From an uncultured Clostridia bacterium (GTDB lineage: Bacteria > Bacillota > Clostridia > Christensenellales > Aristaeellaceae): 40,535 nt of DNA. The stretch spans positions 1 to 40,535 of the forward strand of contig CAMVHE010000022.1 in the NCBI GenBank assembly GCA_947167215.1, given 5' to 3'. Position numbers and translations under genes: made by a program. Shown piece after piece: positions 11,341-37,409 of this stretch (within the stretch, counting starts at the first letter, position 1; every line of letters begins with the position of its first letter). The notes under the pieces were generated by a model that ran no database searches, was not told the DNA's origin, and worked only from the letters and a program-made list of their open reading frames with translations.

Positions 11341-12813
11341 CTAAATGACAAATATCGGGGAGATGAAGGCTCTGCTGCCATTGACTTCCGTCACTTCTGC
11401 CTGATAGTAGTCCCACGGGGTGTGACGCTTATCATCCAGTTCCAGATGAACCTGGCAGGCAGATGCAGGATATGCGGTATGCATCTTAAAGGCATGAGAA
11501 GCCCACGGTTTGAGATGGGCCGAATATCCGGATTCCAGTAATTGCCGGAGGGAAGAGATCTGTTTCTTCCCGTTAAGATCCAGGGTGATCTGTGAAGAAG
11601 GATCGGCCTCGATTTCGAAAACGAAGGCGCAGGTCTGGGGATGCAGCGTACTCTTGTTGCAGACGGTGTCACACCAGAAGAAAGCAGTATTTCGATCCTG
11701 ATGGAAGCCGTTGTTCAAACGATTGGTATTCTCCTCGCTGTTTACCTCGCTGTCATGGGGACTGAGCGCATTGAGTCCCCGAAGATATGGGGTAACGCGA
11801 AGGATGACTCCATCTTCCAGATGCAATGCACCTTCCCAGTGGAACAGGTCCGGGGAGCTGCTCCAGCCCATTTCAATGCGAAGAAGGAATCTGCGGTCTT
11901 TTGCTGCAACGGGCTGGGAGAAAGTCATGGCAATCTTCTGCCCGTTTCGCGAGATCGTAGCGAATTCAATGGGAGCATCTCCTTCTGCGTGAAGAAGAAC
12001 ATGACGGTTATCCGCGGAGAGCATGTCGCCCATCATGGAATGATTCAGAGTAAAGGAACAACGGATGCGGTCCGCATTGACTGCATAGCAGTGGCCTGCC
12101 AGCAGGGATTCCCATATGGATTCCCGACTTTTTTCATTGGCATAAACGGCCGCAAGCCCATCTCCCCAGGAACCGGGAAATCCAGCATGATGGTCGGTAG
12201 AACCAACGAAGGAAAACCGGAATCCGCGTTTTAATCCTTCTGCCACAGTATTGTGTGCATCCAGGGGTCCCATGTCATGGTAATAGGGGAAAGGACCATC
12301 TTCGCGCATTGCAGCTCCATGTTTGGAGACAACCTCAACAATGGGGGAAACAGCGGGATTATACAGGTCCCATGAAATTCCGCGATAGCCTGGAGTATAA
12401 CCGATATGATGCGGTACAGCGATGGAACGATGGCCGCAGTCGTGTACCAGTGCATCCGGAGAATCCCGATAAATGAGGGGGAAATCAGAGTCCGGAGAGA
12501 GGAAATGCCGGTCCCCGTACAGGGAAGAATGCATTTCGTAGGACTGAAAAGTGACAAAATCAGACGTGTTCGCTTCATTTATTCGTTTCTGAACCTGCGG
12601 CCAGTTATCCCTCAGTTTCGCGAAGCCTTCCCGATGAAAATCCACGAGAAAGGCCGTTTCGGGATTTCTGCTGATCATATCCGGCCACATGGCATGCCCG
12701 GTAATGGCACAGAAATCCAGATGAACCCGTGCATTGTTAAGCGCGTTTTCCAGGGAACCGAATCCGTAGGAGATGCCGCAATGGTTATGGAGGTCCCCCC
12801 AATATAGAGTCAT
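11341..12813 (-). CDS. DUF3604-like PHP-type metal-dependent hydrolase
   Basis: The 490-residue product opens with YWGDLHNHCGISYGFGS, where D7, H9 and H11 form a PHP-type metal site, followed by FCAITGHAMWPDM, HHIGYTPG and FVGSTDHHAGFPGSWG with further metal-ligand histidines. This is the DUF3604 pattern within the PHP superfamily. PHP proteins are mostly phosphoesterases; no activity is known to me for this group. The C-terminal ~170 residues look like a beta-rich accessory domain. There is no signal peptide, so it is cytosolic. It is the last gene of the operon, 12 bases after the sulfatase, which suggests it acts on the same substrate or its product. Confidence 0.75.
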   Translation of the reverse strand: MTLYWGDLHNHCGISYGFGSLENALNNARVHLDFCAITGHAMWPDMISRNPETAFLVDFHREGFAKLRDNWPQVQKRINEANTSDFVTFQSYEMHSSLYGDRHFLSPDSDFPLIYRDSPDALVHDCGHRSIAVPHHIGYTPGYRGISWDLYNPAVSPIVEVVSKHGAAMREDGPFPYYHDMGPLDAHNTVAEGLKRGFRFSFVGSTDHHAGFPGSWGDGLAAVYANEKSRESIWESLLAGHCYAVNADRIRCSFTLNHSMMGDMLSADNRHVLLHAEGDAPIEFATISRNGQKIAMTFSQPVAAKDRRFLLRIEMGWSSSPDLFHWEGALHLEDGVILRVTPYLRGLNALSPHDSEVNSEENTNRLNNGFHQDRNTAFFWCDTVCNKSTLHPQTCAFVFEIEADPSSQITLDLNGKKQISSLRQLLESGYSAHLKPWASHAFKMHTAYPASACQVHLELDDKRHTPWDYYQAEVTEVNGSRAFISPIFVI

Positions 12814-12825
12814 GAAAGTTCCTTT

Positions 12826-14343
12826 CTAGTCATGCATGAAAGCAGTGAGCTCCAGCCGGAGATACTGCTCCTCCGGAGCATCGTTCTCTTTCATGAGGGC
12901 AATCATGGCATGGATACATTTTTCTTCAAGCTCGGGATCGTTCAGCGGATGCAGCTGGTGCGGATCTGTCTGAAGATCGAACAGGAGACTTTCCCGGATA
13001 TGGTCTACATTGACATAACCGATTCGTGCATGTGTATCCCTGGTGACCCATGGACCGGAACGGATTTTCATGAGACGACATCCCTTGGTAAAAGAGAAAG
13101 GTTCGGCGAGCTCTGTGGTCTGCATCTCAGCCACTGAAAAGCGATTATATAGATGGGTAGGCATATAGGTGTATTGATAAAGGGGTTCATTTCCGGATTG
13201 TCCTACACCTCGCATGTAGACCGTATTTCCATCCGTAATGCAGACATGACCGCCGTAAACCCCGAAGAGCGCATAATTTCTGACTGGCGAGTCCTGTGAA
13301 ATGGTATCTTCCAGATCATGACCCTGCATATCTCTGGCAGGTTCCTGGCCGAAATAGCGGAGCAGAGTGACCGGAAGGTCAATGGTTTGCACAAGGCTGT
13401 TTCTGCGGCATCCCGCAGTTTCCGGATGACGGGGATCCCAGATGAAAAGAGGGATGAGGGCAGTCTCGTTATACCAGGGCATGATATTCTTTCCCCAGTA
13501 ATCATGCTCATCCAGCAGAAAACCATGATCCGTATTGACAATGAGCATGGTATCCTTCCAGAGATTGTATTCATCCATGAGGTCCAGGACCTGTCCGAGG
13601 TACCGGTCGCACATGGTGATCAGGGCAGCATACGTTTTCCGTACATTCCTGCGTCTTTCCGGATCTTCATCGGCGCGCCCATATCCAGGCCAGTCAAAAG
13701 GATCGTCCTTGTAATCATAGTTATAGAGTGCTTTGTACTCATCAGGAACAAAGAAAGGTTCGTGGGGATCAAAGCATTCAATCTGAAGAAACCAGTTATC
13801 CGCATCCTTGTTCTTCCGGATGAAGTTCATGCTTTTTTGCATGGTTTGCACCTGGGGCATATCTTCTTCTCTGGCAAAGAGGGTGCGGTTGACCTTGTCC
13901 ATCTGCATCTTAAAATCTGCAGCGGTACAGTTGATTTTGTCATATCCCTTCATTGCGTCTACATCCGCGTAGAAAGGGTCGCCCTCCTGCCCGCGGATAA
14001 AATCGAAAGAAGTGTAACGGAAGTGATACGTGGCACCGCCATCTTCCCAATAGTGCTGATGGTCTGTTACAAGGTGGGTATAGATACCGTTGCTGGAAAG
14101 CATTTCTATGGCGGAGTCATCATAGGGTTCGATCGGCCCCCAGCTTCGGTGAAGAAAGTTATAACGACCTGTATGCAGTTCTCTTCTGGCAGGCATACAT
14201 GGCATGCTTCCTACATAGCAGTTGTCAAAAAGACAGGTATGCTCCGCCAAACGACGAAAATTGGGTGCGATTGTATCGTTGCAGCCATAGGGGGGAAGAA
14301 AGTGCCGGTTCAGGGTATCGAACATGAGCATGATGGCTTTCAT
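12826..14343 (-). CDS. Sulfatase-family hydrolase (Cys-type active site)
   Basis: The 505-residue protein belongs to the alkaline phosphatase/sulfatase superfamily. The active-site stretch SMPCMPARRELHTGR contains C49-x-P-x-R and the following T-G, the modification box in which Cys becomes formylglycine. Metal-ligand candidates are D9 (MLMFDTLN) and the later NTDHGFLLDEHDYWGKN. Ala replaces the usual Ser after Pro, as in some arylsulfatase/phosphonate-monoester-hydrolase relatives, so sulfate, phosphonate or phosphodiester substrates are all possible. There is no signal peptide, so it acts in the cytosol on imported material. An anaerobic maturase would be needed; none is encoded in this window. 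It overlaps the DUF4432 stop by four bases. Confidence 0.85.
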   Translation of the reverse strand: MKAIMLMFDTLNRHFLPPYGCNDTIAPNFRRLAEHTCLFDNCYVGSMPCMPARRELHTGRYNFLHRSWGPIEPYDDSAIEMLSSNGIYTHLVTDHQHYWEDGGATYHFRYTSFDFIRGQEGDPFYADVDAMKGYDKINCTAADFKMQMDKVNRTLFAREEDMPQVQTMQKSMNFIRKNKDADNWFLQIECFDPHEPFFVPDEYKALYNYDYKDDPFDWPGYGRADEDPERRRNVRKTYAALITMCDRYLGQVLDLMDEYNLWKDTMLIVNTDHGFLLDEHDYWGKNIMPWYNETALIPLFIWDPRHPETAGCRRNSLVQTIDLPVTLLRYFGQEPARDMQGHDLEDTISQDSPVRNYALFGVYGGHVCITDGNTVYMRGVGQSGNEPLYQYTYMPTHLYNRFSVAEMQTTELAEPFSFTKGCRLMKIRSGPWVTRDTHARIGYVNVDHIRESLLFDLQTDPHQLHPLNDPELEEKCIHAMIALMKENDAPEEQYLRLELTAFMHD

Positions 14344-15275
14344 AGGCGTTCTCCCTTACAGTTTGAAAAAGACAAACGGAGATGGGTGGTATGATACTTT
14401 CCATGTTCCAGTATGGGAAGCAGTTTGCGTTCGCGGGCGCCTTTACGGCCAAGACCCGGGCAGAGACAGGGCTCCATTCCCAGAGCATATCTTGCAGGAT
14501 CCGGATTCTTCCAGATACCCATCCAATCAAAGCCTTTAAAGGAAATCACAGATGCCAGATGAACCTCAGGAGAAACAAGTTTTACGAAACCGTACCGGAG
14601 TTTGGTGTAATAGACGGTTTCCGGCTTTGAGGACGCGGGAAAGGAAGCCAGGACGGTATCTGCCTTTGCTTTGCGACGTGTATCCCTGTTTTCCGCATAT
14701 ACCAGGGGTGCGTCGATTTGGAGTGCAGGAGAAAGAAAGGGGGCACCGAAGTTGATGTGGTACATCATCATGAAAGGGGTGGTGATGCCTTGATTAAATA
14801 CTCTGTCCTGCAAATAGATACCGGTGTTACTTATCATGTAGTTTCTGCAGAGGAGTAAACGTTCCCCCTCGGGGTGCGTTTCCAGAATATTTGCATGAAT
14901 CCGCACGGAATCCTCGTCCTGCTTCTCAAAACAGGAAACTGCAGGCATGTGGCTGATGCAGCCGTGAAGGCCAAATGCACGACCATTTTCCTCGCAGGGC
15001 CTTCCTGCCTGGATAAGTCCGCAGGTAGTTAACATCCCGCCAAAGAAAGAACGGGAAAAGCTTTCCGTGCCTTCACAACGGTAGTCGGGGTCCACCAGTC
15101 CGGCAGCGCGGTTGGTAAAGCTTATCTGAACCCCGTCGTAGAGAACTTCATAGATATCCATACAACGATCCGGAAGCAGTGTAACCGCCATTTTACCGGC
15201 GCGGACAACGACAGCATTCACTGGAAGCGATGTCAGCGGATCAGCAATCTGAATATGCTCGCATTCAGCAGACAT
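14340..15275 (-). CDS. DUF4432 family protein (aldose 1-epimerase-like fold)
   Basis: The 311-residue product has the DUF4432 pattern: VTLLPDRCMDIYEVLYDGVQISF near the N-terminus (the aldose epimerase 'lp-r-GmdI' strand), a central FFGGMLTTCGLIQAG, FGLHGCISHMPA, MMMYHINFGAPFL, and a C-terminal MEPCLCPG. The His/Glu pattern is like galactose mutarotase relatives, which bind sugars. No membrane or signal segment is present. It lies four bases after the ATPase gene and overlaps the sulfatase gene by four bases, so it is firmly part of the operon. Its presence suggests that the imported ester carries a sugar or polyol part. Confidence 0.72.
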   Translation of the reverse strand: MSAECEHIQIADPLTSLPVNAVVVRAGKMAVTLLPDRCMDIYEVLYDGVQISFTNRAAGLVDPDYRCEGTESFSRSFFGGMLTTCGLIQAGRPCEENGRAFGLHGCISHMPAVSCFEKQDEDSVRIHANILETHPEGERLLLCRNYMISNTGIYLQDRVFNQGITTPFMMMYHINFGAPFLSPALQIDAPLVYAENRDTRRKAKADTVLASFPASSKPETVYYTKLRYGFVKLVSPEVHLASVISFKGFDWMGIWKNPDPARYALGMEPCLCPGLGRKGARERKLLPILEHGKYHTTHLRLSFSNCKGERL

Positions 15276-15279
15276 TGTC

Positions 15280-16014
15280 TTACCACCACTTAATCAGCGA
15301 AGTCACCTTTTCGCGAAGATCAATGAAAGCTTCATCTGTGACTTTACGGGGGTAGGGCAACGGATTGATAAGGTTTTCCTTGATGGTTGTCGGCTTGTTG
15401 GTCAGAACCAGGATGCGTTCGGAGAGATAGACGGCCTCTTCAATGTTATGGGTGATAAAAATGACGGTAGTCCCCATTTTCCGCCAGAGGTTAAGAAGCT
15501 CATCTTCCAGTTTAAAGCGCAGTTCCAGGTCCAGCTGGCCGTAAGGTTCATCCATCAGCAGAAGATCCGGTTCCACGGCAAAAGCTCTCGCAATGGCAAC
15601 CCGCTGCATCATGGATGCACTCAGCTGGTTTGGGTAGTATTTGGCGAATTGAGTGAGACCGACCAGTTCAAGCGCACGATCCGTTTTTTCTTCAATTTCC
15701 TTCTTTGGCAGCTTCTTGATCTGCAGACCGAAACTGACATTCTCCCGGACGTTCAGCCAGGACATGGTCGAGTATTCCTGCATGATGTAAGCAAGAGAAT
15801 GCTTTTTCAGGTTAACCGGCTCGTGGTTAATCTGAATGGAGCCTTTGTTGATTTCATAAATACCGGTCATGCTGTTCAGAAATGTTGTTTTACCACACCC
15901 GGTGGGCCCTACGATACAGAGAAATTCACCATCTGCCACCTCGAAGGAGATATCATTCAGAACGAGGAGTTCACCGAAGGACTTGGTAAGATGATCTACT
16001 TGAACACTGCTCAT
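15280..16014 (-). CDS. NitT/TauT-type ABC transporter ATP-binding protein (second copy)
   Basis: The 244-residue ATPase has Walker A GPTGCGKTT, Q-loop MQEYSTMSW, signature LSASMMQRVAIARA (the canonical GG is changed to AS), Walker B LLLMDEPYGQLD and H-loop ITHNIEEAV. These are typical of the nitrate/sulfonate/taurine importer branch (SsuB/TauB/NrtD). ATG 16014 is chosen because GAGGTG ends five bases upstream; a GTG at 16020 overlaps that site. It lies ten bases after the other ATPase gene. The two ATPases are distinct in sequence and probably form a heterodimer. Confidence 0.87.
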   Translation of the reverse strand: MSSVQVDHLTKSFGELLVLNDISFEVADGEFLCIVGPTGCGKTTFLNSMTGIYEINKGSIQINHEPVNLKKHSLAYIMQEYSTMSWLNVRENVSFGLQIKKLPKKEIEEKTDRALELVGLTQFAKYYPNQLSASMMQRVAIARAFAVEPDLLLMDEPYGQLDLELRFKLEDELLNLWRKMGTTVIFITHNIEEAVYLSERILVLTNKPTTIKENLINPLPYPRKVTDEAFIDLREKVTSLIKWW

Positions 16015-16023
16015 AGGCACACC

Positions 16024-16794
16024 TCACTTTGTGGATTCAAAGAGTTCACCGATTTGCTCCCGCAAACGAAGAAACTCCTTGTCAACGTAGTTCCGGGGAC
16101 GGGGGAGGTCGACTATCACTTCATCTTTGACACATGTTGGACAGTTGGTCAGAAGTACGACACGGTCGGCCAGATAAACGGCTTCTTCAATGTTATTCGT
16201 GATAAAGATGACCGTTCGCTTTTCCTGACTCCATATCTGTTCGATTGCCTCCTGCATGGAATAGCGGGTCTGTGCATCCAGATGACCGAAAGGCTCATCC
16301 ATAAGAAGCACTTCGGGATCATTGCAGTAGGCTCTTGCAATGCCGACCCGCTGGCGCATGCCTCCGGACAGATGAATGGGAAAGCTTTTTTCAAAGCCGG
16401 TAAGTCCAACCAGATCAATGAAGTGCTGTGCTTTTGCAAGGCGCTCACTTCTTGGCATATGCTTCATACGCGGGCCAAAGTCCACATTGTGCATGACATT
16501 AAACCAGGGAAAGAGGCCGGTAGTCTGATAAACGACGCCAAGCCTGGGGTTTGGTTTGGTGATTTTCTCCCCGTTAAAGATGACTTCACCCTCCGTGGGC
16601 TGCTGAATGCCTGCAATGATGTTCATGAGCGTAGTTTTACCGCACTGGCCGGGGCCGAGCAGAACCACAAACTCGTTTTCCCGAACGGAAAGATTAAGAT
16701 TTTTTAAGACCTCCAGATGGGTTTCCTTTGTATCAAAGGTTTTTCCTAGATTCTTGCATTCGATAATGGTTCTTACTTGCCCTGCACGTTCCAT
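16024..16794 (-). CDS. NitT/TauT-type ABC transporter ATP-binding protein (first copy)
   Basis: The 256-residue ATPase has Walker A GPGQCGKTT, Q-loop VYQTTGLFPW, a canonical signature LSGGMRQRVGIARA, Walker B LLMDEPFGHLD and H-loop ITNNIEEAV, where Asn replaces the usual His (ITHN). The other ATPase keeps the His but has an altered signature, so the pair shows complementary degeneration. ATG 16794 is preferred over ATG 16803 because the AAAGGAG site touches the latter directly and lies nine bases from the former. It overlaps the end of the permease gene by about 20 bases. Confidence 0.87.
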   Translation of the reverse strand: MERAGQVRTIIECKNLGKTFDTKETHLEVLKNLNLSVRENEFVVLLGPGQCGKTTLMNIIAGIQQPTEGEVIFNGEKITKPNPRLGVVYQTTGLFPWFNVMHNVDFGPRMKHMPRSERLAKAQHFIDLVGLTGFEKSFPIHLSGGMRQRVGIARAYCNDPEVLLMDEPFGHLDAQTRYSMQEAIEQIWSQEKRTVIFITNNIEEAVYLADRVVLLTNCPTCVKDEVIVDLPRPRNYVDKEFLRLREQIGELFESTK

Positions 16795-17567
16795 CTGCAG
16801 CATCTCCTTTCCAGTGCTTTCAGCAGACTGCTGGTGATGAGGCCAACCAGGCCAATCGCAAGCATGCCCACTATAACCTGAGTGGTGTTTGCATAGTTCA
16901 TGCCGTTGAAGATGATCCAGCCGACTCCTTCGTCAGAACGGATCATTTCAGCTGCGATAACAGCACACCATGCTCCGGCAAAGCTGCCCTGCAGGCCGAG
17001 AAAGATATAGGGAACCGTGGAAGGCAGCAGAACGTTAAAGAAAAGCTGAAGTTTACTGGCACCCAGCATCTGGCCGGCTCCCATGAGCAGCGGGTCCACA
17101 TTGAGTGCCCCGTTGTATGTCTGCACCGTGATTCCGACCAGGGCAGTCATACAGATGAGAAAGTACTTGGAGGATTCACCGAGTCCGAACCAGAGAATAG
17201 CCAGCGGAATCCATGCAAGGCCAGGAATGGGGCGTACAATGGAGAAAAGAGGCATGCCGAATGCCCGAAGCGTCTTCGACCATGCCATGATAAGCCCTAA
17301 AGGAATGCCGATTGCAGCACCAAGAAGGAAGCCGGTACCGACACGCCGCAGGCTGATGAGGATATGCTCCAGCATCACGTTTTTGCCGATTGGCTGAGTA
17401 AACGCGGTAAAAAATTGCTGTATGACAACGAAAGGATTGGGAAAGAATTTTCCGATTCGCGGGCTGTTAGAAACGAGGGTCCAGACAGTCAGAAGAAAGG
17501 CAAAAGCCAGAATGGCATAGAAGATGACTTCAAATCTGGAATTCTGAAAACGATGCTTTTTATTCAT
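16773..17567 (-). CDS. NitT/TauT-type ABC transporter permease (second copy)
   Basis: The 264-residue product has an N-terminal membrane helix (VIFYAILAFAFLLTVWTLV), a central GFLLGAAIGIPLGLIMAWSKTL, FSIVRPIPGLAWIPLAILWFGLGESSKYFLI and the EAA-type loop MGAGQMLGASKLQLFFNVLLPSTVPYI, then APPGxxGAW-like GSFAGAWCAVIAAEM. These are SsuC/TauC family hallmarks, with about six membrane segments. It starts inside the stop of the other permease gene (ATGA overlap). Confidence 0.88.
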   Translation of the reverse strand: MNKKHRFQNSRFEVIFYAILAFAFLLTVWTLVSNSPRIGKFFPNPFVVIQQFFTAFTQPIGKNVMLEHILISLRRVGTGFLLGAAIGIPLGLIMAWSKTLRAFGMPLFSIVRPIPGLAWIPLAILWFGLGESSKYFLICMTALVGITVQTYNGALNVDPLLMGAGQMLGASKLQLFFNVLLPSTVPYIFLGLQGSFAGAWCAVIAAEMIRSDEGVGWIIFNGMNYANTTQVIVGMLAIGLVGLITSSLLKALERRCCRWNVQGK

Positions 17568-18346
17568 TCCATATGCCTCCCCTTTACGACTGCATGTTCG
17601 ATGGAACTGAGAAGGAAATTAAGGATGGCACCGATTATCGTGATCATAGCCATGCCCACGATTACCAGATCGACCCGGGCCATCATACGGGCATACTGAA
17701 TCATGTAGCCCAGACCTTTGTCTGCTGCCAGCATTTCTGCAGCAACCAGGGTCATCCATGCGAGGTTCATGGACAGGGATAATCCGGTGAAGATCATAGG
17801 AAGCGCAGAGGGAATGGCAACTTTAAAAAGAATCTGCGTATTGGAGGCGCCGAAGGTCGTGGCGACCCATTTGTGAACATCTCGGGTTTGTTTGATGCCC
17901 TGGTAACTGTTGAGAATACACTGCGTGACGGTGGAAACAAAAATGACAGCTGCTTTTGCCGTGGTGCCGATGCCGAAGAAAATGAGCATCAGCGGGATCC
18001 AGGCGATGGGGGGAATTGGGCGAATGAAATTGAAGAGCGGAGTGACGAAAAGGTCTACCGGACGGTACCATGCCATACATATTCCCACAGGAATGCCGAT
18101 AATTGCACCAAGCAGGAACCCGTAGAGCGCCAGCTGCAGGGAGGCAACGATATGTTCCAGCATGGTTCCACCATCCGGGGAACGCCGCGACAGCTTGTTG
18201 ATGAAGGATGTGACGACTTTCTTGGGCCCTGGAAGCGCCTGTGGCGGGAAGATGCCGGCGCCGTCTGTGATGAGCCACCATGCAAAGAGAAAGAGAACAA
18301 TGCTGAATAGAGAGATCAGCCAATATTTCCAATTCGCTTTTTTCAT
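17564..18346 (-). CDS. NitT/TauT-type ABC transporter permease (first copy)
   Basis: The 260-residue product parallels the other permease: an N-terminal helix (YWLISLFSIVLFLFAWWLI), GFLLGAIIGIPVGICMAWYRPV, FNFIRPIPPIAWIPLMLIFFGIG, a docking loop WVATTFGASNTQILFKVAIPSALPMI and SLSMNLAWMTLVAAEML. Two non-identical permeases with two non-identical ATPases imply a heteromeric importer, less common than the homodimeric Ssu/Tau type. It is separated from the binding-protein gene by a hairpin at 18375-18423. Confidence 0.88.
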   Translation of the reverse strand: MKKANWKYWLISLFSIVLFLFAWWLITDGAGIFPPQALPGPKKVVTSFINKLSRRSPDGGTMLEHIVASLQLALYGFLLGAIIGIPVGICMAWYRPVDLFVTPLFNFIRPIPPIAWIPLMLIFFGIGTTAKAAVIFVSTVTQCILNSYQGIKQTRDVHKWVATTFGASNTQILFKVAIPSALPMIFTGLSLSMNLAWMTLVAAEMLAADKGLGYMIQYARMMARVDLVIVGMAMITIIGAILNFLLSSIEHAVVKGRHME

Positions 18347-18374
18347 GTGAACTACGCTCCAAACCTTAAAAAGA

Positions 18375-18423
18375 GGCAGTCAGCCGACGGGCCGCTTTCC
18401 AATCGGACTGTCAGATGACTGCC
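18375..18423 (-). terminator. Intra-operon hairpin between the binding-protein and permease genes
   Basis: GGCAGTC (18375-18381) pairs with GACTGCC (18417-18423) with further internal pairing; on the minus strand it is followed by TCTTTTTAAGG. It sits just after the binding-protein gene, like the oppA-oppB hairpin, and may lower expression of the downstream genes. Confidence 0.6.
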
Positions 18424-18457
18424 AATGATTTTTTGATGGATAAAACAGGGAAAATGC

Positions 18458-19483
18458 TTACTTAAGTCCTGCAGCCTGGAGAACATCAACCCGCACATTT
18501 GCTTCAATGTCTTCCTTCTGCTCCGGATCAATCTGTTCTGTCATGATATAGAATCCGACAAAGTTTGCCAGGAAGTCAGCTCCGAGTTCCCGGGTTTTAG
18601 TTGCTTCGACGCCGTAATACGGCTTCTGCTCCATGATTGTCCGGGCAGTTTCTTCGGTGATGCTTCCGCCGTTCAGGTGAACCCAGTTGACGTAATTCTC
18701 GGTGGCGAGGTCGGTGTCTGCATTCAATGCATCATAGGCATTTGCCATGACTTTGCAAAGACGGGCAAGGCCTTCAAACTTGGTGGGATCGGAGAAAGCA
18801 GCATTGGAGCAGACAATCTGGGCGGTAGCGGCACAGTTGAGAGAGGTCAGGCTGGCAAGCTCAACATTTCCTTCCTTGACAAGGTCAAAGGAGAAGTTGT
18901 TGGAACAGGTGAGTACATCGCCTTCACCCAGCTGAAATGCCTGATATGCCTGATTGGCATCCATGGAGACCAGCTTGACGTCGTCCGTCGTGAGTCCAAT
19001 GGCTTCAAGGTATTTGACAGTAGCATAATACTGGAGGGTGCCGCTGGTGGTCAGAATGGTTATTCCACGCACGCTGTCCGCATCACCCTTGATTTCCAAA
19101 CCTTCAACAGCGCCGCTGACGCTTGCACAGGCCAGATCAGGACGGGCGATGAGGCTCATGCCGATGGTATCGTTGTTTGTTTCCATGATAAGTTTGGAAT
19201 TCAGGTTGGCAAGCGCGGGAACAGATGCACCGCCGCCGATGATGGCACAGTCAATATCTCCGGAGATCATGGCTTCATTAGCAGGAGCACCGGAGGAGAA
19301 GACCAGATATTCAATCTTTATTCCACCTGCGACATCAAGGCCGTTGTCAACAACGTACTTGACAGGGAAGCCCGTCCATCCGTCCAGAATGCCCATCTTG
19401 ATAGTGATGGGATCTTCTGCCAAAGCACTGAGACAGATGACTGAAAACATGAGTACCAGTACCAATGAAAGAACCTTTTTCAT
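18458..19483 (-). CDS. NitT/TauT-family ABC solute-binding protein
   Basis: The 341-residue secreted receptor has a signal peptide (MKKVLSLVLVLMFSVICLSALA, cleavage before EDP). The mature part starts TIKMGILDGWTGFPVKYVVDNGLD and has ISGDIDCAIIGGGASVPALAN, the NMT1/SsuA-like pattern for small anions such as sulfonates, nitrate or thiamine precursors, followed by a YVNWVHLNGGSITEET helix near the C-terminus. No lipobox is present. An AAAGGAGG site precedes the ATG. It is the first gene of the eight-gene operon, facing a LacI-family regulator. Ligand inferred from neighbours: a small sulfated or phosphonylated compound. Confidence 0.85.
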   Translation of the reverse strand: MKKVLSLVLVLMFSVICLSALAEDPITIKMGILDGWTGFPVKYVVDNGLDVAGGIKIEYLVFSSGAPANEAMISGDIDCAIIGGGASVPALANLNSKLIMETNNDTIGMSLIARPDLACASVSGAVEGLEIKGDADSVRGITILTTSGTLQYYATVKYLEAIGLTTDDVKLVSMDANQAYQAFQLGEGDVLTCSNNFSFDLVKEGNVELASLTSLNCAATAQIVCSNAAFSDPTKFEGLARLCKVMANAYDALNADTDLATENYVNWVHLNGGSITEETARTIMEQKPYYGVEATKTRELGADFLANFVGFYIMTEQIDPEQKEDIEANVRVDVLQAAGLK

Positions 19484-19533
19484 AATGAAAGACCTCCTTT
19501 AATTCTGAGGCATTTTCACGGTATGCCTCTTTG

Positions 19534-19546
19534 CGTGCATTGTAAC
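19534..19546 (-). promoter_or_regulatory. Candidate operator O1 overlapping the operon -10
   Basis: Read on the minus strand the sequence is GTTACAATGCACG, identical to 19704-19716 on the plus strand. Thirteen identical bases in one ~310-base intergenic region next to a LacI-family gene make it a likely binding site. The link to this regulator is inferred. Confidence 0.5.
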
Positions 19547-19568
19547 AGTGATGAATCATTAGTGTCAA
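19539..19568 (-). promoter_or_regulatory. Promoter of the sulfatase/ABC operon
   Basis: On the minus strand TTGACA (19563-19568) and TACAAT (19539-19544) are separated by 18 bases. The -10 lies within a 13-bp sequence (19534-19546) that recurs near the divergent regulator's promoter, so a protein bound there would block this promoter. Confidence 0.65.
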
Positions 19569-19668
19569 TGCAAAGGAAGACGTGAACTTGTGGAAAGACA
19601 ACAAAATACATAATTGTAAATACAGAAAAATAAACATAATTATTTGGGGTGCAAAAATGAAATATCAA

Positions 19669-19728
19669 AATGTAACATTTTACTTAATTGTTACTGATAC
19701 AATGTTACAATGCACGAAATGTAACATT
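19669..19728 (+). promoter_or_regulatory. Candidate operator cluster upstream of the LacI-family gene
   Basis: TGTAACATT occurs at 19671-19679 and 19720-19728, and its reverse complement AATGTTACA at 19701-19709, forming a 28-base inverted repeat at 19701-19728 just upstream of the regulator's -35. The second copy of the 13-bp GTTACAATGCACG (19704-19716) lies inside. The arrangement suggests autoregulation and coordinated control of both divergent promoters. Confidence 0.5.
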
Positions 19729-19732
19729 TTTA

Positions 19733-19762
19733 TTGACGCTCCGTATTTCTGCGGATTATAAT
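19733..19762 (+). promoter_or_regulatory. Promoter of the LacI-family regulator
   Basis: TTGACG (19733-19738) and TATAAT (19757-19762) are separated by 18 bases. The -35 begins four bases after the inverted-repeat operator candidate. Confidence 0.65.
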
Positions 19763-19794
19763 CAAGTGAGATTATCGGAAGGGGAGTCGGAGCA

Positions 19795-20877
19795 ATGGCA
19801 ATCAGCATGAAGGAAATTGCATACATGTGCAACGTCAGCAGGGGAACCGTAGACAGGGTTCTCAACCATCGCGGCGGTGTCAAACCGGAAACGGAACAGC
19901 GGGTACTGGCGATGGCTGCTTCTCTAGGATATGGCGGAACAGCGACTCCGAGGAATTCCCCGAACCGCTTCCGTTCTTTTCAGATTGGCTTTCTCATCAA
20001 TGCGGTTGGTCATGAATACTTCACGGAAATTCTGAACGGCGTCATGATGGAAATTGAGTCCTTTCCGCATGGCGGTGTAACGTGCATTACGCGCCTGTCA
20101 TCCGGTTTTGATGTTGACCAGCAGCTGCAGATGCTGGACGAACTGGAAAATGCGGGAATTCAGGCGTTGGGGATTACTCCTGCCAACCATCCCCGTATTG
20201 CAGAACGCCTTTCCAGATTTTCTGCGAAAGGCATTCCGGTTGTTATTATTTCTTCGCTTCTGGAGCATTTTGAATATTTTTCTTTTGTGGGACCGAATCA
20301 CTACCAGAGCGGTCGTATAGCAGGAGGGTATGCCAAGCGTATCCTTTCCGATTTTTCCTCGATTGCTATTCTTACCGGCAGTACCAATATGCCCGGTCTG
20401 AACCTCCGGGTACAGGGATTTCGGGATGCTTGCGAGTCGGCAAAGCGGCATTTCATTCTGTACGAGCCGATTCAGAGTTTTGATGACGATGTCATCGCCT
20501 ATAAAGCCATGTCCCGCTTTCTCAGCAATCATCGTGATATTTCGCTTTTCTTCTTTGCAGCTGGCGGTTACAGCGGAGGGTTTCAGGCTATTGATGACGC
20601 GGGGATGATAGGTAAAAGCAAGGTAATCGCCTTTGACACGAAGGAAATCTCGGTACAGTACCTTAAGGAAGGGAAAATATCAGCGCTTTTCAGCCAGCAC
20701 CCCCGGCATCAGGGAAAAACCGCGGTAAGGATCATTATGAATTATCTGCTGAATAAGCAGATTCCTTCACAGCGTGAGCACTATGAATCCATTGAGATTC
20801 TGATTGACGAATCCTACTATCCCAATTCGCAGCTGACCAGAAGGTTCCCGGAATCAAATACGAATAAGGAAGATTAG
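19795..20877 (+). CDS. LacI-family transcriptional regulator
   Basis: The 360-residue protein has an N-terminal LacI helix-turn-helix (ISMKEIAYMCNVSRGTVDRVLNHRGGVKPETEQRVLAMAASLGY, residues 3-46), then a periplasmic-binding-protein-like effector domain: FQIGFLINAVGHEYFTEILNGVMME, GIQALGITPANHPRI, IPVVIISSLL, SFVGPNHYQSGRIAGGYAKR and VIAFDTKEISVQYLKEGKISALFSQHPRHQGKTAVRII. Such domains usually bind sugars (ribose, xylose type). It is transcribed away from the ABC/sulfatase operon and shares operator-like repeats with it. The adjacent, convergent alpha-galactosidase could be another target. Effector unknown. Confidence 0.88.
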   Translation: MAISMKEIAYMCNVSRGTVDRVLNHRGGVKPETEQRVLAMAASLGYGGTATPRNSPNRFRSFQIGFLINAVGHEYFTEILNGVMMEIESFPHGGVTCITRLSSGFDVDQQLQMLDELENAGIQALGITPANHPRIAERLSRFSAKGIPVVIISSLLEHFEYFSFVGPNHYQSGRIAGGYAKRILSDFSSIAILTGSTNMPGLNLRVQGFRDACESAKRHFILYEPIQSFDDDVIAYKAMSRFLSNHRDISLFFFAAGGYSGGFQAIDDAGMIGKSKVIAFDTKEISVQYLKEGKISALFSQHPRHQGKTAVRIIMNYLLNKQIPSQREHYESIEILIDESYYPNSQLTRRFPESNTNKED

Positions 20878-31863: not shown

Positions 31864-33438
31864 CTAATCGGTAAAGGAAGCAACACCACGGAACTGCTCA
31901 AGTTCACGAATGTCACGCGCATTGGTGAAAGCGGAACGGGACAGAACTGCACCGGTCCTCCAATAGAGGGGGATATAAGGCATATCTGCCAGGAATTTCG
32001 TCTGTATCTCTTTCATGATGCGCTGGTAATCCGTAGCCAGATAGGCTTTTCGAAGGTTTCCAATCAAATCATTCATTTCATTGGAACGGTAGCGCGTATA
32101 ATTGCAGCTGCCGGTGGAGGAAATGGAGAAACCTGGATCAGGAGAAATATCAAAATTGAATGCAGCAAGTACCAGCGCAAAATCTCCTGACCGGAGCTTT
32201 CCGAGCACATCGTCCCTCGACCAGGTGACAACATTGACCTGGATTCCGACGGCAGCGAGCTGTTCCCGGATCTTATTGGCAGCATTTGTGCGGACGGTGG
32301 AACTGACTTCATCATACACCAGAAGGCGAAGGGTTGGCATGGCTTCATTGTTCCGGTAGCGTTTCCCGTCATCTGCCAGTTTCCAGCCTGCACTGTCCAG
32401 CAGGGAGGCGGCCATCAGGGGATCATACTGATCACGAATTGTTTCTTCATTGCTCAGCCAGGTGCCGGCCGGTATGGGAGTAAATGCAATCGTTGCCATG
32501 CCCTGATAAATGGAGGAAATGAGCTCACTTCGGTTAATTGCGTAATAGATGGCAGACCGGACTGCGTTCTGACCGGCTTCATCGCTTTTGAGAATGGAAT
32601 AGCTGCGGTTGATCAGCAGCACTTCCAGCTGCTTCGTTCTGGCACTGAGCGAGAAGGAACTGAGGGAGCCGGAATAACGCGATGCGTTGATGGAACGGGA
32701 AAGTGCCACGTCGATATCGTGCATGTCAAAGGCCGTCATGACCTCTTCATCGTTTGAATAGATGTTTGCTCGAATATTGCGTATCTGTGGGCTGCGCTGC
32801 CACCATGTGGGATTGGCGGTCAGCCAGATCCCGCTGCCCTTTTCATATCCGTCAAAGCGGTAAGGGCCGGTTCCCATCGGCATCTCATTTCCGACCTGAT
32901 TGGCCGGCAGGATGGGAAAGGTAAGTGCATACAGGGCGCCATAGCTTGGACGCCTCAGCGTAAAGACCAGCCTGGTATCATCCTGTGCTGTCCAGCTTCG
33001 CAGAGAATAGAAAGTGGAGTAGTAAAGACCGCGGTTTGCGAGGTCTACTTCTGAATTGAGCTGGTTGTCAAAGCCGGCTAGCGCATACATGTAGTCGAGG
33101 GTGGCGACAACATCGCGTGCAGTCAGCTTCTGCCCGTTATGAAAGGTAACGTCATCCCGCAGGGTGACGATAAGACGCTGTCCCTCATTGGAGAATTCAT
33201 AAGAATAGGCAAGCTTTGGCTGTGGAACATAATCGTCATCAAGATAGAAAAGTCCTTCATATACCAGGTCCAACAGGGTTACGGCATCACGCTGGTTGAG
33301 CTGCAGCGGCCGCAACTCCAGGGTGTCCGTAGCGACCATCCCGACGATAAGGGATGTGGTGCTTGCCAGGCAGGACAGCGGTATGAAGAGAAGCAGGATG
33401 AAAGCGAAAAAAATGGATAAGAGGGGATGTTTTTTCAT
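31864..33438 (-). CDS. ABC solute-binding protein family 5 (peptide type), orphan
   Basis: The 524-residue secreted protein has a signal peptide (MKKHPLLSIFFAFILLLFIPLSCLAS) and the SBP_bac_5 pattern: LVYEGLFYLDDDYVPQPKLAYSYEFSNEGQRLIVTLRDDVTFHNGQKLTARDVVATLDYM, the GTGPYRFDGYEKG turn and AVRSAIYYAINRSELISSIYQG. A Cys near the signal end does not fit a lipobox (Pro at -3). No permease or ATPase is nearby, so it either feeds another transporter or acts as a sensor. It is 17 bases downstream of the CoaE-transglycosylase gene and ends the polA operon. Confidence 0.87.
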   Translation of the reverse strand: MKKHPLLSIFFAFILLLFIPLSCLASTTSLIVGMVATDTLELRPLQLNQRDAVTLLDLVYEGLFYLDDDYVPQPKLAYSYEFSNEGQRLIVTLRDDVTFHNGQKLTARDVVATLDYMYALAGFDNQLNSEVDLANRGLYYSTFYSLRSWTAQDDTRLVFTLRRPSYGALYALTFPILPANQVGNEMPMGTGPYRFDGYEKGSGIWLTANPTWWQRSPQIRNIRANIYSNDEEVMTAFDMHDIDVALSRSINASRYSGSLSSFSLSARTKQLEVLLINRSYSILKSDEAGQNAVRSAIYYAINRSELISSIYQGMATIAFTPIPAGTWLSNEETIRDQYDPLMAASLLDSAGWKLADDGKRYRNNEAMPTLRLLVYDEVSSTVRTNAANKIREQLAAVGIQVNVVTWSRDDVLGKLRSGDFALVLAAFNFDISPDPGFSISSTGSCNYTRYRSNEMNDLIGNLRKAYLATDYQRIMKEIQTKFLADMPYIPLYWRTGAVLSRSAFTNARDIRELEQFRGVASFTD

Positions 33439-33455: not shown

Positions 33456-34793
33456 TCAGTCAATCGAAGGTGTCGGTGAAGGAACCGGGGACGGCGTGGG
33501 GAAATAGTATTTTTCGTACTTGTCCCGTGCTTTTAACACTTTGTCGCAGTATGCTGCAGTATCACTGGTAGGGATGACGTCGAGCGTTATACCATCATGG
33601 CTGTAATCAGGATTGGACAGCCATTTGTCGACATTGCCCTGCCCCGCGTGATAGGCGCATACCATCTTCTTGGGATCATGGCTGAAACGGTTGGCAAGAT
33701 ATGCCAGATACCAAGTACCGAAGGATATATTCGTTTCAGGATCATACAGCAGGTCAAAGGAGTAATCACTGACACTTAAACGATGGGCAATCCATTCGGC
33801 AGTATCTTCCATGATCTGCATGAGGCCCCGGGCACCCAGGCGGCTTTCTGCCTTTGGATTATAGGAAGATTCGCAGAGAATGATGGCAGAAACAAGCGCC
33901 GGATCCAGACCGCGGAGACGGGAATAGGACAGGACAAGATCACCATAATAAAGTGGATGCTGTGCACGCTCTGCTGCTTCCGCCTCAAGACGTCTGCGTT
34001 CTTCCTGCCGGGCGAGGAAATCCCTGGTAATGAAAAAGGCACTGATGCAGAGAACCAGGATCAGAAGGACGGAGAGGGTGAGGCGCAAAGGACGGGGAAG
34101 ACCGGAAAATGGCGAAGGTCTCGGCTTTGGAGGAATCTCCATTTTTTCCGAGACCGTCTCAATCGGTACGCTGCGTACACGGCGACGGGGAATGGACGGA
34201 GGGGAAAGGGAAGCCAGGACCGTCCGGACCAGTACATCCACCTGATCACAGGTTTCTTCAAGCGTGCCATTGGTTGTAATGACAGCATCCGCACGCTTTT
34301 CCTTTTCAGACAGGGGCATCTGGGCAGCAATGCGCTTTTCTGCTTCTTCTGCAGAGAGGGAATCCCGTTCCTGCATCCGTGAAATCTGCAGGTCGTGTGT
34401 GGCACTGACGACCCATACACTGTCATAATCGCTGTCAAAGCCCGCTTCATAAAGGAGCGGGACATCTCCGAAAATGAGACCTTTGGGGGAATCTCCTGCT
34501 TCCAGCATTACCTGCATGCGCTCCCGGATCATGGGATGAAGGATTCCTTCGAGTATGGCACGCTTTGACGGGTCGGAAAAGACGATCTCGGCCAGTTTGT
34601 GACGATCCAGCCGGCCCGTGGCAGTGACAGTACCGGGAAAGGATTCCTCAATGGCAGGCAGTGCCTGACCATGGTCGGCTGTAAGGTCGTGAGAAATCTG
34701 ATCGGCATCCAGTACGGTATAGCCGAGACTGCGCAGATGATTGGCAACGGTCGTTTTTCCGCAGGCAATGGATCCTGTCAGTGCGATTTTCAT
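33456..34793 (-). CDS. coaE: Fusion of dephospho-CoA kinase and membrane-anchored lytic transglycosylase
   Basis: One uninterrupted 445-residue frame holds two enzymes. Residues 1-195 are CoaE, which phosphorylates dephospho-CoA: P-loop GSIACGKTT (7-15), LDADQISHDL, HPMIRERM, DVPLLYEAGFD and RMQERDSLSAEEAEKRIAAQMP. Residues 196-236 are a Pro/Arg-rich linker, 237-256 a membrane helix, 257-285 a charged stretch. Residues ~285-430 are an SLT/Slt70-type transglycosylase with catalytic Glu308 (ILCESSYNPKAES), LGARGLMQIMEDTA and CAYHAGQGNVDKW. The C-terminal tail is Pro/Ser-rich. The kinase would be cytosolic and the transglycosylase outside. It lies 15 bases after polA. In related bacteria I recall these as adjacent genes; the join is unusual. 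Confidence 0.87.
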   Translation of the reverse strand: MKIALTGSIACGKTTVANHLRSLGYTVLDADQISHDLTADHGQALPAIEESFPGTVTATGRLDRHKLAEIVFSDPSKRAILEGILHPMIRERMQVMLEAGDSPKGLIFGDVPLLYEAGFDSDYDSVWVVSATHDLQISRMQERDSLSAEEAEKRIAAQMPLSEKEKRADAVITTNGTLEETCDQVDVLVRTVLASLSPPSIPRRRVRSVPIETVSEKMEIPPKPRPSPFSGLPRPLRLTLSVLLILVLCISAFFITRDFLARQEERRRLEAEAAERAQHPLYYGDLVLSYSRLRGLDPALVSAIILCESSYNPKAESRLGARGLMQIMEDTAEWIAHRLSVSDYSFDLLYDPETNISFGTWYLAYLANRFSHDPKKMVCAYHAGQGNVDKWLSNPDYSHDGITLDVIPTSDTAAYCDKVLKARDKYEKYYFPTPSPVPSPTPSID

Positions 34794-34808: not shown

Positions 34809-37364
34809 TTATTTGGTGTCGAACCAGGACCTGCCGGCGTGAACGTCTGCCAGCAGAGGAACACTGAGTGTGGCCGCATGCTCCATACAGTCGCGAAGCA
34901 GTGCTATGACTTTTTCCGTTTCTTCTTCCGGTGTATCTACGATAAGCTCGTCATGAACCTGGAGAATAAGCTTGGCTCCCAGATGCTCATCCTGTAAACG
35001 GGTATAAACAGCATTCATGGCTATTTTGATGATATCTGCGGCGGTTCCCTGTACCGGGGTATTCATTGCTGCCCGCTCTCCGAACTGCCGTGTATTGTAA
35101 TTGGGGGAGGAAAGCTCCGGAAGAGGCCGGCGCCGTCCGTACAATGTTTCAGAATAGCCGTTTGTTTTGCCCTTGGTGACGCATTCGTCCATGAAACGGT
35201 GAATTGCAGGATATCGGGCAAAATACTTTGCGATGAAGTCTCCGGCTTCCCTGCGGGAAATATGCAGATCCCTGGCGAGACCGAAATCGGAGATGCCGTA
35301 CACGATGCCAAAGTTGACCGCTTTTGCACTGGAACGCATCTGCGGGGTCACTTCCTCCAGGGGAACGCCATATACTTCTGCAGCGGTGCGGGTATGGATG
35401 TCCTGACCGCGAAGGAATGCATCCTGCATGGCAGCATCTCCGGAAAGGTGTGCAAGGATGCGGAGCTCGATCTGTGAATAGTCTGCGTCTACCAGACTGC
35501 AGCCGGGACTGGCGATAAAAGCACGGCGGATCTCCTTGCCCATTTCGGTCCGAACCGGGATATTCTGCAGATTGGGCTCGGAAGAAGAGATGCGGCCGGT
35601 TGCCGCGATCGTCTGGTCAAACCAGCTGTGGATGCGTCCGTTCCGGTCTTTCAGCTTCAGGAGCCCGTCGATGTAAGTGCTCTTCAGTTTGGTGATCTGG
35701 CGGTAAGTGAGAATTTCATTAATGACGGGATGCTTATCTGCAAGATTCTGAAGCGTTTCTGCGTCGGTGGAATACCCGCGCTGGGTTTTGCGCCCTGCCG
35801 GAAGCTGCATTTTGTTGAAGAGCACATCTCCCAGCTGCTGCGTGCTGTTGATATTGAAGTCGCCGACACCGCAGAGTTCAAGGATCCGGGCTTTCAGATC
35901 GGAAATCTGCTGGTCGTAGCTTTTTCCCAGAGAAGACAATACTTCCTCATCTACCAGGAAACCTGCCCGTTCCATAGAAAACAGGGTTTTTGTCAGGGGC
36001 AGTTCAATGGTTTCATAGAGAGATTGCATACCGGCCGCAGTAAGGGCGGAATAGTCCGTCAGATATTTTTCCAGCAGGGAGGAGGCGTTCTCGGGTGCCT
36101 CATATTTTCCCTTCTGAGGAGCCAGCAGATACTGGATGATAAGCTCATCATCATACGGAGCGGAAAGGGACAGGTCATAGGAGGAGAGCTCTGTCATGAG
36201 CTGCTTGGCATTATAGAGGACAAGCTTCCTGTTTCCGGAAAACAGGGAGGAAAAGGTTTTGATGGCATCGAAATAATCAAGGCCGATGCTGAGCAGGTTT
36301 TCTGCGATGGCGACGGTATAGCGTCTGCCGTCAGAGAAGGCAAGCGAAATCTGTCCGCGGAAGCTGAAAAAGGCAAGCGGAATATCCGGATGGGCATCTG
36401 CAAGGGCGATGAGCTCTTCGATATCGGAGATAGCAGACAGAACGGTTTCCTCCTGCCATGGAATGGAGGGAGTACTGGGCTGGGAGGGTGCTGTCTGCAT
36501 TTTGTCCAGCCGGGTAATGATGGAGGTCATGTCCAGCTTTCGGAGCAGATCAAAACCGCCATCGAAGGGCTGCCTCCGACAGTCTTCCAGGGAAACATCA
36601 TCGAGAGGAACATTGCGGTTTATGGTTGCCAGCATTTTGGAAAGAAGGCCGTTGGCGGAACCTTCGATAATCTTTTCCCGCTGTTTTCCTTTCAGGTCCG
36701 CTTCGGCATGGGCGAGGACCTCCTCCAGGGTACCATACGTGGTCAGCAGTTTAACGGCGGTTTTCTCACCGATGCCGGGAATGCCCGGAATGTTGTCGCT
36801 GGCATCGCCCATGAGCCCCTTCAGGTCCGTAATATGTTCCGGGGTGACGCCAAAGTCTTCGAGTACCTTTTCCGGTGTGTAGAGGACGATATCGGTAACT
36901 CCGCGCTTCGTATAGAGCACATGGCTGGTCTCGGAGACAAGCTGCATGGAGTCCCGGTCACCGGTGACAAGCAGAGCATGGATGCCGGCCTCTTCACAGC
37001 GTCTGGCAAAGGTTCCGAGAATATCATCTGCCTCGAAGGTGGCACAGGTCAGAATCCTGACACCCATAGCACTCAGTACTTCACGGATCAGGTCAAACTG
37101 CGGGGCAAGTTCCGGCGCGGTTGCCTTGCGCCCTGCCTTATATGCGTCATATTTCTTATGGCGGAAGGTCGGGCCCTTGAGGTCGAAAGCAACAGCCAGA
37201 TATTCCGGGGAATAATCGTTGACGACCTTTATCATCATGGAAAGAAAACCGAAAACGGCATTGGTATAGATACCGTCACGATTGGTAAGCGGCGGAAGCG
37301 CATGAAAAGCGCGGTGCATGAGGCTGTTTCCGTCAATAATGACGAAAGTTTTGCTTTCTTCCAT
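34809..37364 (-). CDS. polA: DNA polymerase I
   Basis: The 851-residue enzyme fills gaps and removes RNA primers. An N-terminal 5'-3' exonuclease domain (residues 1-290: IDGNSLMHRAFHALPPL, FEADDILGTFARRCEE, VTGDRDSMQLV, GIPGIGEKTAVKLL) precedes a central region where the DxE of proofreading exonucleases is absent (FFSFRGQISLAFSDG), so proofreading is probably lost as in other Firmicutes. The polymerase domain has DADYSQIELRILAHLSGD, RSSAKAVNFGIVYGISDFGLARDL and QVHDELI. ATG 37364 with AGGAAGG is chosen; the frame continues upstream without support. It heads the polA/CoaE-SLT/SBP operon. Confidence 0.96.
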   Translation of the reverse strand: MEESKTFVIIDGNSLMHRAFHALPPLTNRDGIYTNAVFGFLSMMIKVVNDYSPEYLAVAFDLKGPTFRHKKYDAYKAGRKATAPELAPQFDLIREVLSAMGVRILTCATFEADDILGTFARRCEEAGIHALLVTGDRDSMQLVSETSHVLYTKRGVTDIVLYTPEKVLEDFGVTPEHITDLKGLMGDASDNIPGIPGIGEKTAVKLLTTYGTLEEVLAHAEADLKGKQREKIIEGSANGLLSKMLATINRNVPLDDVSLEDCRRQPFDGGFDLLRKLDMTSIITRLDKMQTAPSQPSTPSIPWQEETVLSAISDIEELIALADAHPDIPLAFFSFRGQISLAFSDGRRYTVAIAENLLSIGLDYFDAIKTFSSLFSGNRKLVLYNAKQLMTELSSYDLSLSAPYDDELIIQYLLAPQKGKYEAPENASSLLEKYLTDYSALTAAGMQSLYETIELPLTKTLFSMERAGFLVDEEVLSSLGKSYDQQISDLKARILELCGVGDFNINSTQQLGDVLFNKMQLPAGRKTQRGYSTDAETLQNLADKHPVINEILTYRQITKLKSTYIDGLLKLKDRNGRIHSWFDQTIAATGRISSSEPNLQNIPVRTEMGKEIRRAFIASPGCSLVDADYSQIELRILAHLSGDAAMQDAFLRGQDIHTRTAAEVYGVPLEEVTPQMRSSAKAVNFGIVYGISDFGLARDLHISRREAGDFIAKYFARYPAIHRFMDECVTKGKTNGYSETLYGRRRPLPELSSPNYNTRQFGERAAMNTPVQGTAADIIKIAMNAVYTRLQDEHLGAKLILQVHDELIVDTPEEETEKVIALLRDCMEHAATLSVPLLADVHAGRSWFDTK

Positions 37365-37409
37365 GGAAAAATCCTTCCTCTCTCTACGCAGAAAGAATAT
37401 GTGCCTTCT

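Follow-up and report, generated by a model that had tools for sequence, protein, structure and literature searches.

A LacI-associated operon of an uncultured Clostridia bacterium predicted to import a sulfated carbohydrate whole and desulfate it in the cytosol

The sulfatase AtsA of Pseudomonas aeruginosa is cytosolic, and choline sulfate is imported prior to cleavage. Here we describe an operon that may work in the same order, found in a 40,535-nucleotide stretch from an uncultured Clostridia bacterium (contig CAMVHE010000022.1 of assembly GCA_947167215.1; hereafter the window), in which a LacI-family regulator faces genes for an ATP-binding cassette (ABC) importer of NitT/TauT type, an S1-type sulfatase, a DUF4432 protein and a PHP-superfamily metallohydrolase. 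The closest described systems are those of Pseudomonas and Streptobacillus. In Pseudomonas UW4, according to the excerpted genome description (PMC3596284), a sulfatase gene clusters with a sulfonate-type importer annotated for sulfate esters, and an excerpted table for P. aeruginosa (PMC8274868) lists a probable sulfatase and the NitT/TauT set PA2327-2329 within one variable region. As far as these excerpts go, the window resembles the Pseudomonas atsACBR-sftR-atsK cluster in joining a sulfatase gene to a sulfonate-type (Ssu/NitT-TauT) importer; unlike that cluster, which has one permease gene, one ATPase gene and a LysR-family regulator, it has two permeases, two ATPases, a LacI regulator and sugar-type enzymes. 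For Streptobacillus moniliformis, the available part of the source (PMC5430744) proposes that sulfated sugars are imported for cytosolic desulfation, with ABC import and a sulfatase predicted to be cytosolic in the glycosaminoglycan-uptake locus Smon0120-0127. That locus differs from the window in having two permeases with one ATPase used twice, a GH88 enzyme in place of the PHP and DUF4432 proteins, and a disaccharide ligand. With these precedents, intact import followed by cytosolic desulfation is not new in principle, and the original prediction, made for this DNA from its letters alone, went too far in calling it a distinct strategy. What appears to be new, as judged from sequence, is the LacI-controlled combination with DUF4432 and PHP proteins, the interchangeability of the importers that serve this sulfatase subfamily, and a clade of hetero-tetrameric importers predicted to have one dead ATP site.

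With somewhat better than even confidence, we read the locus as a LacI-controlled carbohydrate-sulfate uptake operon that couples intact import to cytosolic desulfation. A secreted binding protein would catch a small sulfated carbohydrate, which a hetero-tetrameric NitT/TauT-type importer (permeases 1 and 2, ATPases 1 and 2) would take in whole. A formylglycine sulfatase, activated by the cell's anaerobic sulfatase maturase (anSME), would then strip the sulfate in the cytosol; the DUF4432 protein would interconvert or bind the freed sugar, the PHP enzyme would hydrolyse a second bond of the same molecule, and the operon would be induced through LacI. The ligand is probably an organosulfate and, if it is one, a sulfated sugar is likewise the probable kind, because the LacI regulator, the DUF4432 protein and the exchange of the importer for CUT1 and phosphotransferase (PTS) types argue for a sugar; the taurine relatives of the importer keep other organosulfur ligands in play. 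If this is true, some bacteria bring in sulfated sugars intact and remove the sulfate within the cell; sulfate is then freed in the cytosol and not outside, and cross-feeding and community sulfate release need rethinking for these lineages. Knowledge of glycan degradation in gut Firmicutes and Proteobacteria lies well behind that in Bacteroides, according to the excerpt of one review (PMC9067506).

All nine predicted open reading frames (ORFs), eight packed genes and a facing LacI gene, were recovered (Table 1), with two exact four-base overlaps where several had been described. Running from position 19483 to 11341 on the minus strand, the operon encodes the binding protein, permease 2, permease 1, ATPase 2, ATPase 1, the DUF4432 protein, the sulfatase and the PHP protein, with spacings in that order of +111 (binding protein to permease 2), -4, -31, +3, +4, -4 and +12 bases; spacings of -31 to +12 after the initial 111-base gap are consistent with a single transcript. 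A scan with the PHP protein of a genome collection (84,980 species by its description) returned 20 loci. One of them, L007 from Lachnospiraceae bacterium 526-35 (L numbers denote loci, G000 the window's own genome), carries the complete LacI-to-PHP set in identical gene order, with protein identities to the window of 53% for LacI, 78% for the binding protein, 81/77% for the permeases, 74/80% for the ATPases, 43% for DUF4432, 74% for the sulfatase and 58% for PHP. In L008 (IMSAGC_002) the 3' half of the set, from ATPase 2 onwards, is present up to the contig edge. The co-occurrence check proposed at the outset thus came out positive in L007 and partially in L008, and since the flanking genes of L007 are unlike those of the window, the genes seem to travel together as one cassette. 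Such cassettes are rare: among genomes of the same order 2/297 have a match to the PHP protein at E<=1e-10, and among genomes of the class 3/391 have one to the binding protein at E<=1e-15, the own genome being included in both counts. Of the 20 PHP relatives, 18 show no such importer in the stretch examined, and the sulfatase is also found with other importers. Enzymes without the transporter had been named beforehand as evidence against the prediction; we read them as importer exchange rather than refutation.

The sulfatase carries the predicted C-x-P-x-R motif as C49-M-P-A-R and matches PF00884 at 98.4 bits (cut-off 25), which places it among the S1 formylglycine sulfatases. In all 12 aligned sulfatases C49, P51 and R53 are invariant, as are D9, D272, H273 and K285, the first three of which we take to be metal ligands. 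The first Met stands at the start of the first core strand in 8/12; of the remaining four, L067 has a TTG at that point, where L064 and L070 carry an internal ATG, and L065 begins two codons earlier. Starting at the first core strand, these proteins have no room for a signal peptide. The window's own genome encodes an anSME (G000:C74) that scores 369.1 bits against TIGR03942 (cut-off 349.45), a family with loose matches in 12 of 14 control genomes and matches above cut-off in two. Among curated NCBIfam models the sulfatase ranks PehA first (119.2 bits, cut-off 900) and choline sulfatase TIGR03417 second (98.3, cut-off 433), and it stays below the cut-off of both, as it does for the arylsulfatase PRK13759 (91.3, cut-off 481). 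Its top four PDB matches are 4upl, 4upi and 2vqr, which bear sulfatase or multifunctional family names, and 2w8s, a phosphonate monoester hydrolase; with solved relatives so mixed, sequence alone cannot decide between sulfate and phosphodiester. A structure prediction meant to separate the protein from phosphonate monoester hydrolases gave a poor model (pLDDT 60.3).

Nineteen distinct loci, the window included, hold a sulfatase at least 34% identical to that of the window, after the duplicates L004=L027 and L007=L071 were merged; the search matches L043 (G680), L040/L069 (G687:C95, masked by a spurious overlapping ORF), L047, L048, L051, L053 and L044 were left unclassified. Owing to the choice of loci through the PHP gene, the counts that follow are not frequencies. 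The two-permease/two-ATPase importer lies upstream of the sulfatase in 7/19 loci (window, L007, L008, the first copy in L062, L063, L065 and L082; L008 and L062 are cut by contig ends), and a CUT1 sugar importer is found in 6/19 (the second copy in L062, L067, L068, L081, L085 and L086). Four others have a CUT2-type permease (PF02653; L064), a Dpp-type permease (L070), TctA (L083) or PTS EIIC and IIA (L084, where the sulfatase is split by a stop codon). An importer gene is therefore present in 17/19 loci, and none was seen in L027, which lies at a contig start, or in L066. A less biased draw of 398 genomes of the phylum gave six loci outside the own genome, of which one has the two-permease/two-ATPase importer, three CUT1, one TctA and one PTS.

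By BLAST match, anSME-like genes are present in L062, L083, L084, L085 and L086. A TauE/SafE exporter (Pfam, above cut-off) directly follows the sulfatase in L062 and L082 and is also found in the L065, L072 and L073 regions, while pairs of CHR transporter genes occur in L062 and L081 and a CHR gene in L010 lies close to the PHP gene. The TauE genes next to related sets suggest that the sulfur is expelled and not retained. The own genome holds a second set of this kind in L062 (G000:C74:1-16927), where the contig begins inside permease 2 and behind the importer come a 52%-identical sulfatase, TauE, anSME and the CHR pair; a third related sulfatase (40%) stands behind CUT1 permeases in the same locus. 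The pattern reads as an importer joined to a putatively cytosolic sulfatase, the importer being exchangeable and a sulfur oxyanion sometimes exported. The predicted order of import and then cytosolic cleavage, with sulfate as the likely leaving group, gains support from the lack of a signal peptide in the 12 aligned sulfatases, the anSME of the genome, the importer genes of 17/19 loci, TauE and CHR beside related loci, and taurine genes beside sister importers.

The importer has permease and ATPase families related to those of TauABC and SsuABC, and sister importers of its clade lie with Xsc. Unlike those systems, it falls under the Tau/Ssu cut-offs and has four different subunits with complementary motif loss. 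Its scores are 223.2 against 357 bits for TauB, 242.3 against 360 for SaoA and 165.1 against 342 for TauC; for the binding protein, which is under the cut-off of every matched family (NMT1_2, 23.2 against 24.7; SsuA family, 35.9 against 163.5), the NitT/TauT label is softer than initially stated. The comparison covered 14 loci in which both ATPases and both permeases are present; from one further scan, 10 of 35 places were examined, besides the window, L074 and L082. The two ATPases form separate clades with support of 100/100 (100/100 and 98/98 with four outside ATPases added), as do the two permeases (98/96 and 99/95, four outside permeases added), and all four subunits show identical sub-clades. 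We therefore take the importer to be an ancient hetero-tetramer whose subunits have been inherited together. The sub-clade of the window, L007, L063 and L082 is sulfatase-linked in 4/4 cases, L007 and L063 having been reached through the enzymes. That of L062, L065, L072 and L073 has two sulfatase-linked members and two near LarA-like, TIM-like and other sugar-type genes with TauE. In the third, L118-L122, the loci L118-L121 adjoin taurine genes; L117 stands apart. The taurine identification rests on L119, where Xsc scores 897.6 bits (cut-off 676.4) and alanine dehydrogenase 550.4 (cut-off 391.85); its Xsc, aminotransferase and alanine dehydrogenase clusters recur in L118 and L120, and L121 has a cut Xsc at the contig end. 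We give about an even chance to the wider proposal that these are an undescribed Bacillota clade of NitT/TauT-type importers in which the hetero-tetramer is obligate and one ATP site is dead. Such importers would be dedicated to organosulfur anions (taurine, sulfated sugars, probably sulfosugars) and would feed cytosolic enzymes, among them a signal-peptide-less sulfatase subfamily coupled interchangeably to several importer types.

The dead site is proposed from an asymmetry of the ATPase pair that the original prediction had missed, as it had the operator-like sites described below. In 15/15 loci (the 14 and L074), ATPase 1 has LSASM, LSVSx, ISSSM or ISASM in place of the signature, never LSGG, with Walker A, Walker B and the H-loop His intact. 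ATPase 2 has an intact LSGGM in all 15, with the H-loop His replaced by Asn in 14 and by Ser in one (L122), and an unusual Walker A, GPG[QRH]xGK. The single-ATPase NitT-type controls L015, L123 and L125 keep both LSGG and His. Among ABC ATPases of other loci (32 reads, 11 of them repeat views, leaving 21), an S-x-S signature was found in 0/20 readable cases, by pattern and across mixed ABC families, and loss of the H-loop His in 0/14. In an ABC dimer each ATP site is made of the Walker motifs and H-loop of one subunit and the signature of the other, so that the losses fall on one site while the other stays canonical. Most likely, then, the canonical site combines Walker A, Walker B and H-loop of ATPase 1 with the signature of ATPase 2, and the degenerate site combines Walker A and B of ATPase 2, without the H-loop His, with the signature of ATPase 1; the two sites may accordingly differ in function as well.

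Degenerate ATP sites are well known in heterodimeric exporters, and the question of why a dead site is kept has mostly been studied there. The exporters TM287/288 and BmrCD resemble the window's pump in having one consensus and one degenerate site, as do the fused importers RbsA/NupO of Bacillus subtilis, according to the excerpted source (PMC11466899). In RbsA/NupO, which are type II importers, the domains are fused and the Walker A lysine has been lost; in the window, unlike all of these, a NitT/TauT-type importer is encoded by separate genes, keeps the Walker lysine and Walker B, and has lost signature and H-loop on opposite subunits. It offers a compact test case for why some ABC importers retain a dead ATP site. 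Among the matches listed by literature searches, which covered open-licence papers in PMC, there was no report of degenerate sites in NitT/TauT-type importers and, with some term sets narrow, no paper on the two-permease/two-ATPase importer type or on PHP/DUF4432 proteins as enzymes.

The assignment of the regulator to the LacI family stood (helix-turn-helix PF00356 with a cut-off of 27 bits, PF13407 with one of 35.1; scores in Table 1), and its sensor domain is of a sugar type. Each transcription unit is preceded by a promoter-like match with 11/12 consensus bases, and these are the only two of that score in the 10.3 kb scanned, where 21 matches of equal or lower score compare with 11.9 expected. 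When both strands of the window were scanned for the palindrome AATGTWACATT, allowing one mismatch, three sites appeared (0.61 expected), all of them within the 311-base intergenic region, and its core ATGTWACA is confined to those three sites. The corresponding region of L007 holds one exact and one looser copy. We infer that the LacI protein binds these palindromes.

For the DUF4432 protein the family assignment held firmly (cut-off 32.5 bits for PF14486; Table 1). The PHP protein was more difficult: a predicted structure and conserved metal ligands back the PHP fold, while the DUF3604 label, at 19.6 bits against a PF12228 cut-off of 20.4, was rejected at face value, and the NCBIfam model for CehA/McbA (NF038032) gave 40.2 against 80. 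PF12228 matched two other places in the own genome and not the window gene. Neither the PHP protein nor the binding protein had a match at E<=1 in a sequence search of the PDB. Relatives of the PHP gene were seen elsewhere. A second copy in the own genome (G000:C26:33810-34928, L028), 55% identical over residues 1-372 of 490, lies behind CUT1-like permeases, and its match contains an in-frame TAA; a distant paralogue (27%; G000:C134:5233-6762, L006 and L029) directly follows a TctA gene (PF01970) and lies near an ORF that looks TctC-like by eye. In L015 a PHP relative occurs together with a LarA-like gene.

Several observations weigh against a sulfated-sugar operon. Eight of the 18 non-window sulfatase loci come from genomes picked for the PHP gene, though from elsewhere in them, and L007 and L008 were found through the PHP gene itself. 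TauE and CHR genes are missing from the window operon itself, as are a sugar kinase and a glycosidase; phosphonate monoester/phosphodiester hydrolases are among the solved proteins nearest to the sulfatase; and four sister importers (L118-L121) adjoin taurine genes. Apart from that of L007, the binding proteins of the sister importers are 21-31% identical to that of the window, and ligands may therefore differ between them. The palindrome statistics over whole sources are modest: three or more copies arise anywhere in 5/100 shuffles of the window, and in L007, where a one-mismatch copy also lies far off at 17177, shuffles reach the observed number in 24/200. These odds, from both strands of the whole source, supersede an earlier one-strand count with an intergenic Markov model (0.043 expected); being modest, they leave the clustering in the promoter region as what counts.

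Three other explanations were weighed. Sulfur scavenging as by Pseudomonas ats, with a small organosulfate that is no sugar (choline sulfate-like, aryl or steroid sulfate) as the ligand, would fit the second place of choline sulfatase in the NCBIfam ranking, the taurine genes beside sister importers, and Pseudomonas UW4, whose sulfonate-type importer is paired in the excerpted description with an alkyl/aryl-sulfate sulfatase (PMC3596284). We hold it to be unlikely: the LacI regulator and DUF4432 point towards sugars, the same sulfatase subfamily accompanies CUT1 sugar importers in 6/19 loci and PTS genes in one, and TauE beside related sets suggests that sulfur is discarded. It is also decidedly improbable that the sulfatase is a formylglycine phosphonate-monoester/phosphodiester hydrolase of the PehA/PMH kind, with a phosphodiester or phosphonate imported and the PHP protein acting as phosphatase. 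PHP enzymes are often phosphatases, PehA is the best NCBIfam match and 2w8s is among the top PDB matches; the PehA cut-off, however, is far off, and TauE, CHR and taurine genes near related importers and sulfatases point to sulfur oxyanions. Finally, an importer for an unrelated ligand such as taurine, with the enzymes in the operon for another reason, would suit L118-L121 but is very improbable, given that a close sulfatase comes directly after the last ATPase gene, in the same orientation, in L062, L063, L065 and L082, that DUF4432 alone separates the two in the window, L007 and L008, and that the window's importer clade is sulfatase-linked throughout.

Table 1. Features of the operon and its regulatory region, with the own-genome binding proteins (positions in the window unless a locus is given)
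Feature	Position	Strand	Evidence
PHP-superfamily metallohydrolase (CehA/McbA- and DUF3604-like, under curated cut-offs), final operon gene	11341..12813	-	
S1-type sulfatase, C49-x-P-x-R, without signal peptide (predicted cytosolic)	12826..14343	-	PF00884, 12-sequence alignment, anSME in genome
DUF4432 galactose-mutarotase-like protein	14340..15275	-	PF14486 180.3 bits; PDB 3ty1 E 5.5e-7
ABC ATPase 1: Walker A/B and H-loop His intact, signature degenerate (LSASM)	15280..16020	-	
ABC ATPase 2: LSGGM intact, Asn for H-loop His, Walker A GPGQCGKT	16024..16803	-	
Permease 1 (BPD_transp_1)	16773..17567	-	
Permease 2 (BPD_transp_1)	17564..18346	-	
Solute-binding protein, distant NMT1/SsuA-like; signal peptide, no evident lipobox (by eye)	18458..19483	-	
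Weaker operator-like palindrome CATTGTAACAGTG, one inter-arm mismatch, overlaps operon -10	19538..19550	.	
Operon promoter-like TTGACA-18-TACAAT, -10 overlapped by operator-like palindrome	19539..19568	-	11/12 consensus bases
Operator-like palindrome AAATGTAACATTT, perfect	19668..19680	.	
Operator-like palindrome CAATGTTACAATG, one mismatch	19700..19712	.	
Operator-like palindrome AAATGTAACATTT, perfect, immediately upstream of lacI -35	19717..19729	.	
lacI promoter-like TTGACG-18-TATAAT	19733..19762	+	11/12 consensus bases
LacI-family regulator, Peripla_BP_4 sensor domain, divergent	19795..20877	+	PF00356 40.4, PF13407 134 bits
Six own-genome binding proteins	window 18458-19483, 31864-33438; L028:8301-9917; L062:12572-13834; L029:2176-3186; L074:8996-10225		

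Further importers of the clade were seen in other surroundings. In the own genome a third one (L074, G000:C14:3000-22500) comprises a binding protein, an ATPase 2 with the H-loop Asn and an ATPase 1 with LSVST, followed by a DAO-type FAD oxidoreductase, a Pyr_redox protein and, by eye, an SDR-like ORF; this set is possibly another organosulfur route. The importer at L072:1664-19736 lies near LarA-like, TIM-like and TauE genes, and that at L073:2452-19885 near LarA-like, PFK, class II aldolase, transketolase-like (under cut-offs) and TauE genes; both resemble a pathway for a sulfosugar or C3-sulfonate that includes a LarA-type step. SOR_SNZ (PdxS-type) genes stand near clade importers at L065:6701-7573 and L118:13373-14260, one of them beside taurine genes, where pyridoxal phosphate would be used. 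The six own-genome binding proteins of Table 1 have a signal peptide and no evident lipobox by eye, unlike the L007 relative.

An Rfam search of the window gave no match. On its minus strand, at 33456-34793, a single ORF holds both a dephospho-CoA kinase (PF01121, 170 bits) and, C-terminally, a lytic transglycosylase domain (PF01464, 99 bits), separated by a hydrophobic stretch; this is either an odd fusion or neighbouring genes without a stop. On the plus strand, at 37318-39438, a 706-aa ORF has matches to DUF975 and ABC_trans_CmpB (PF06541) in one reading frame.

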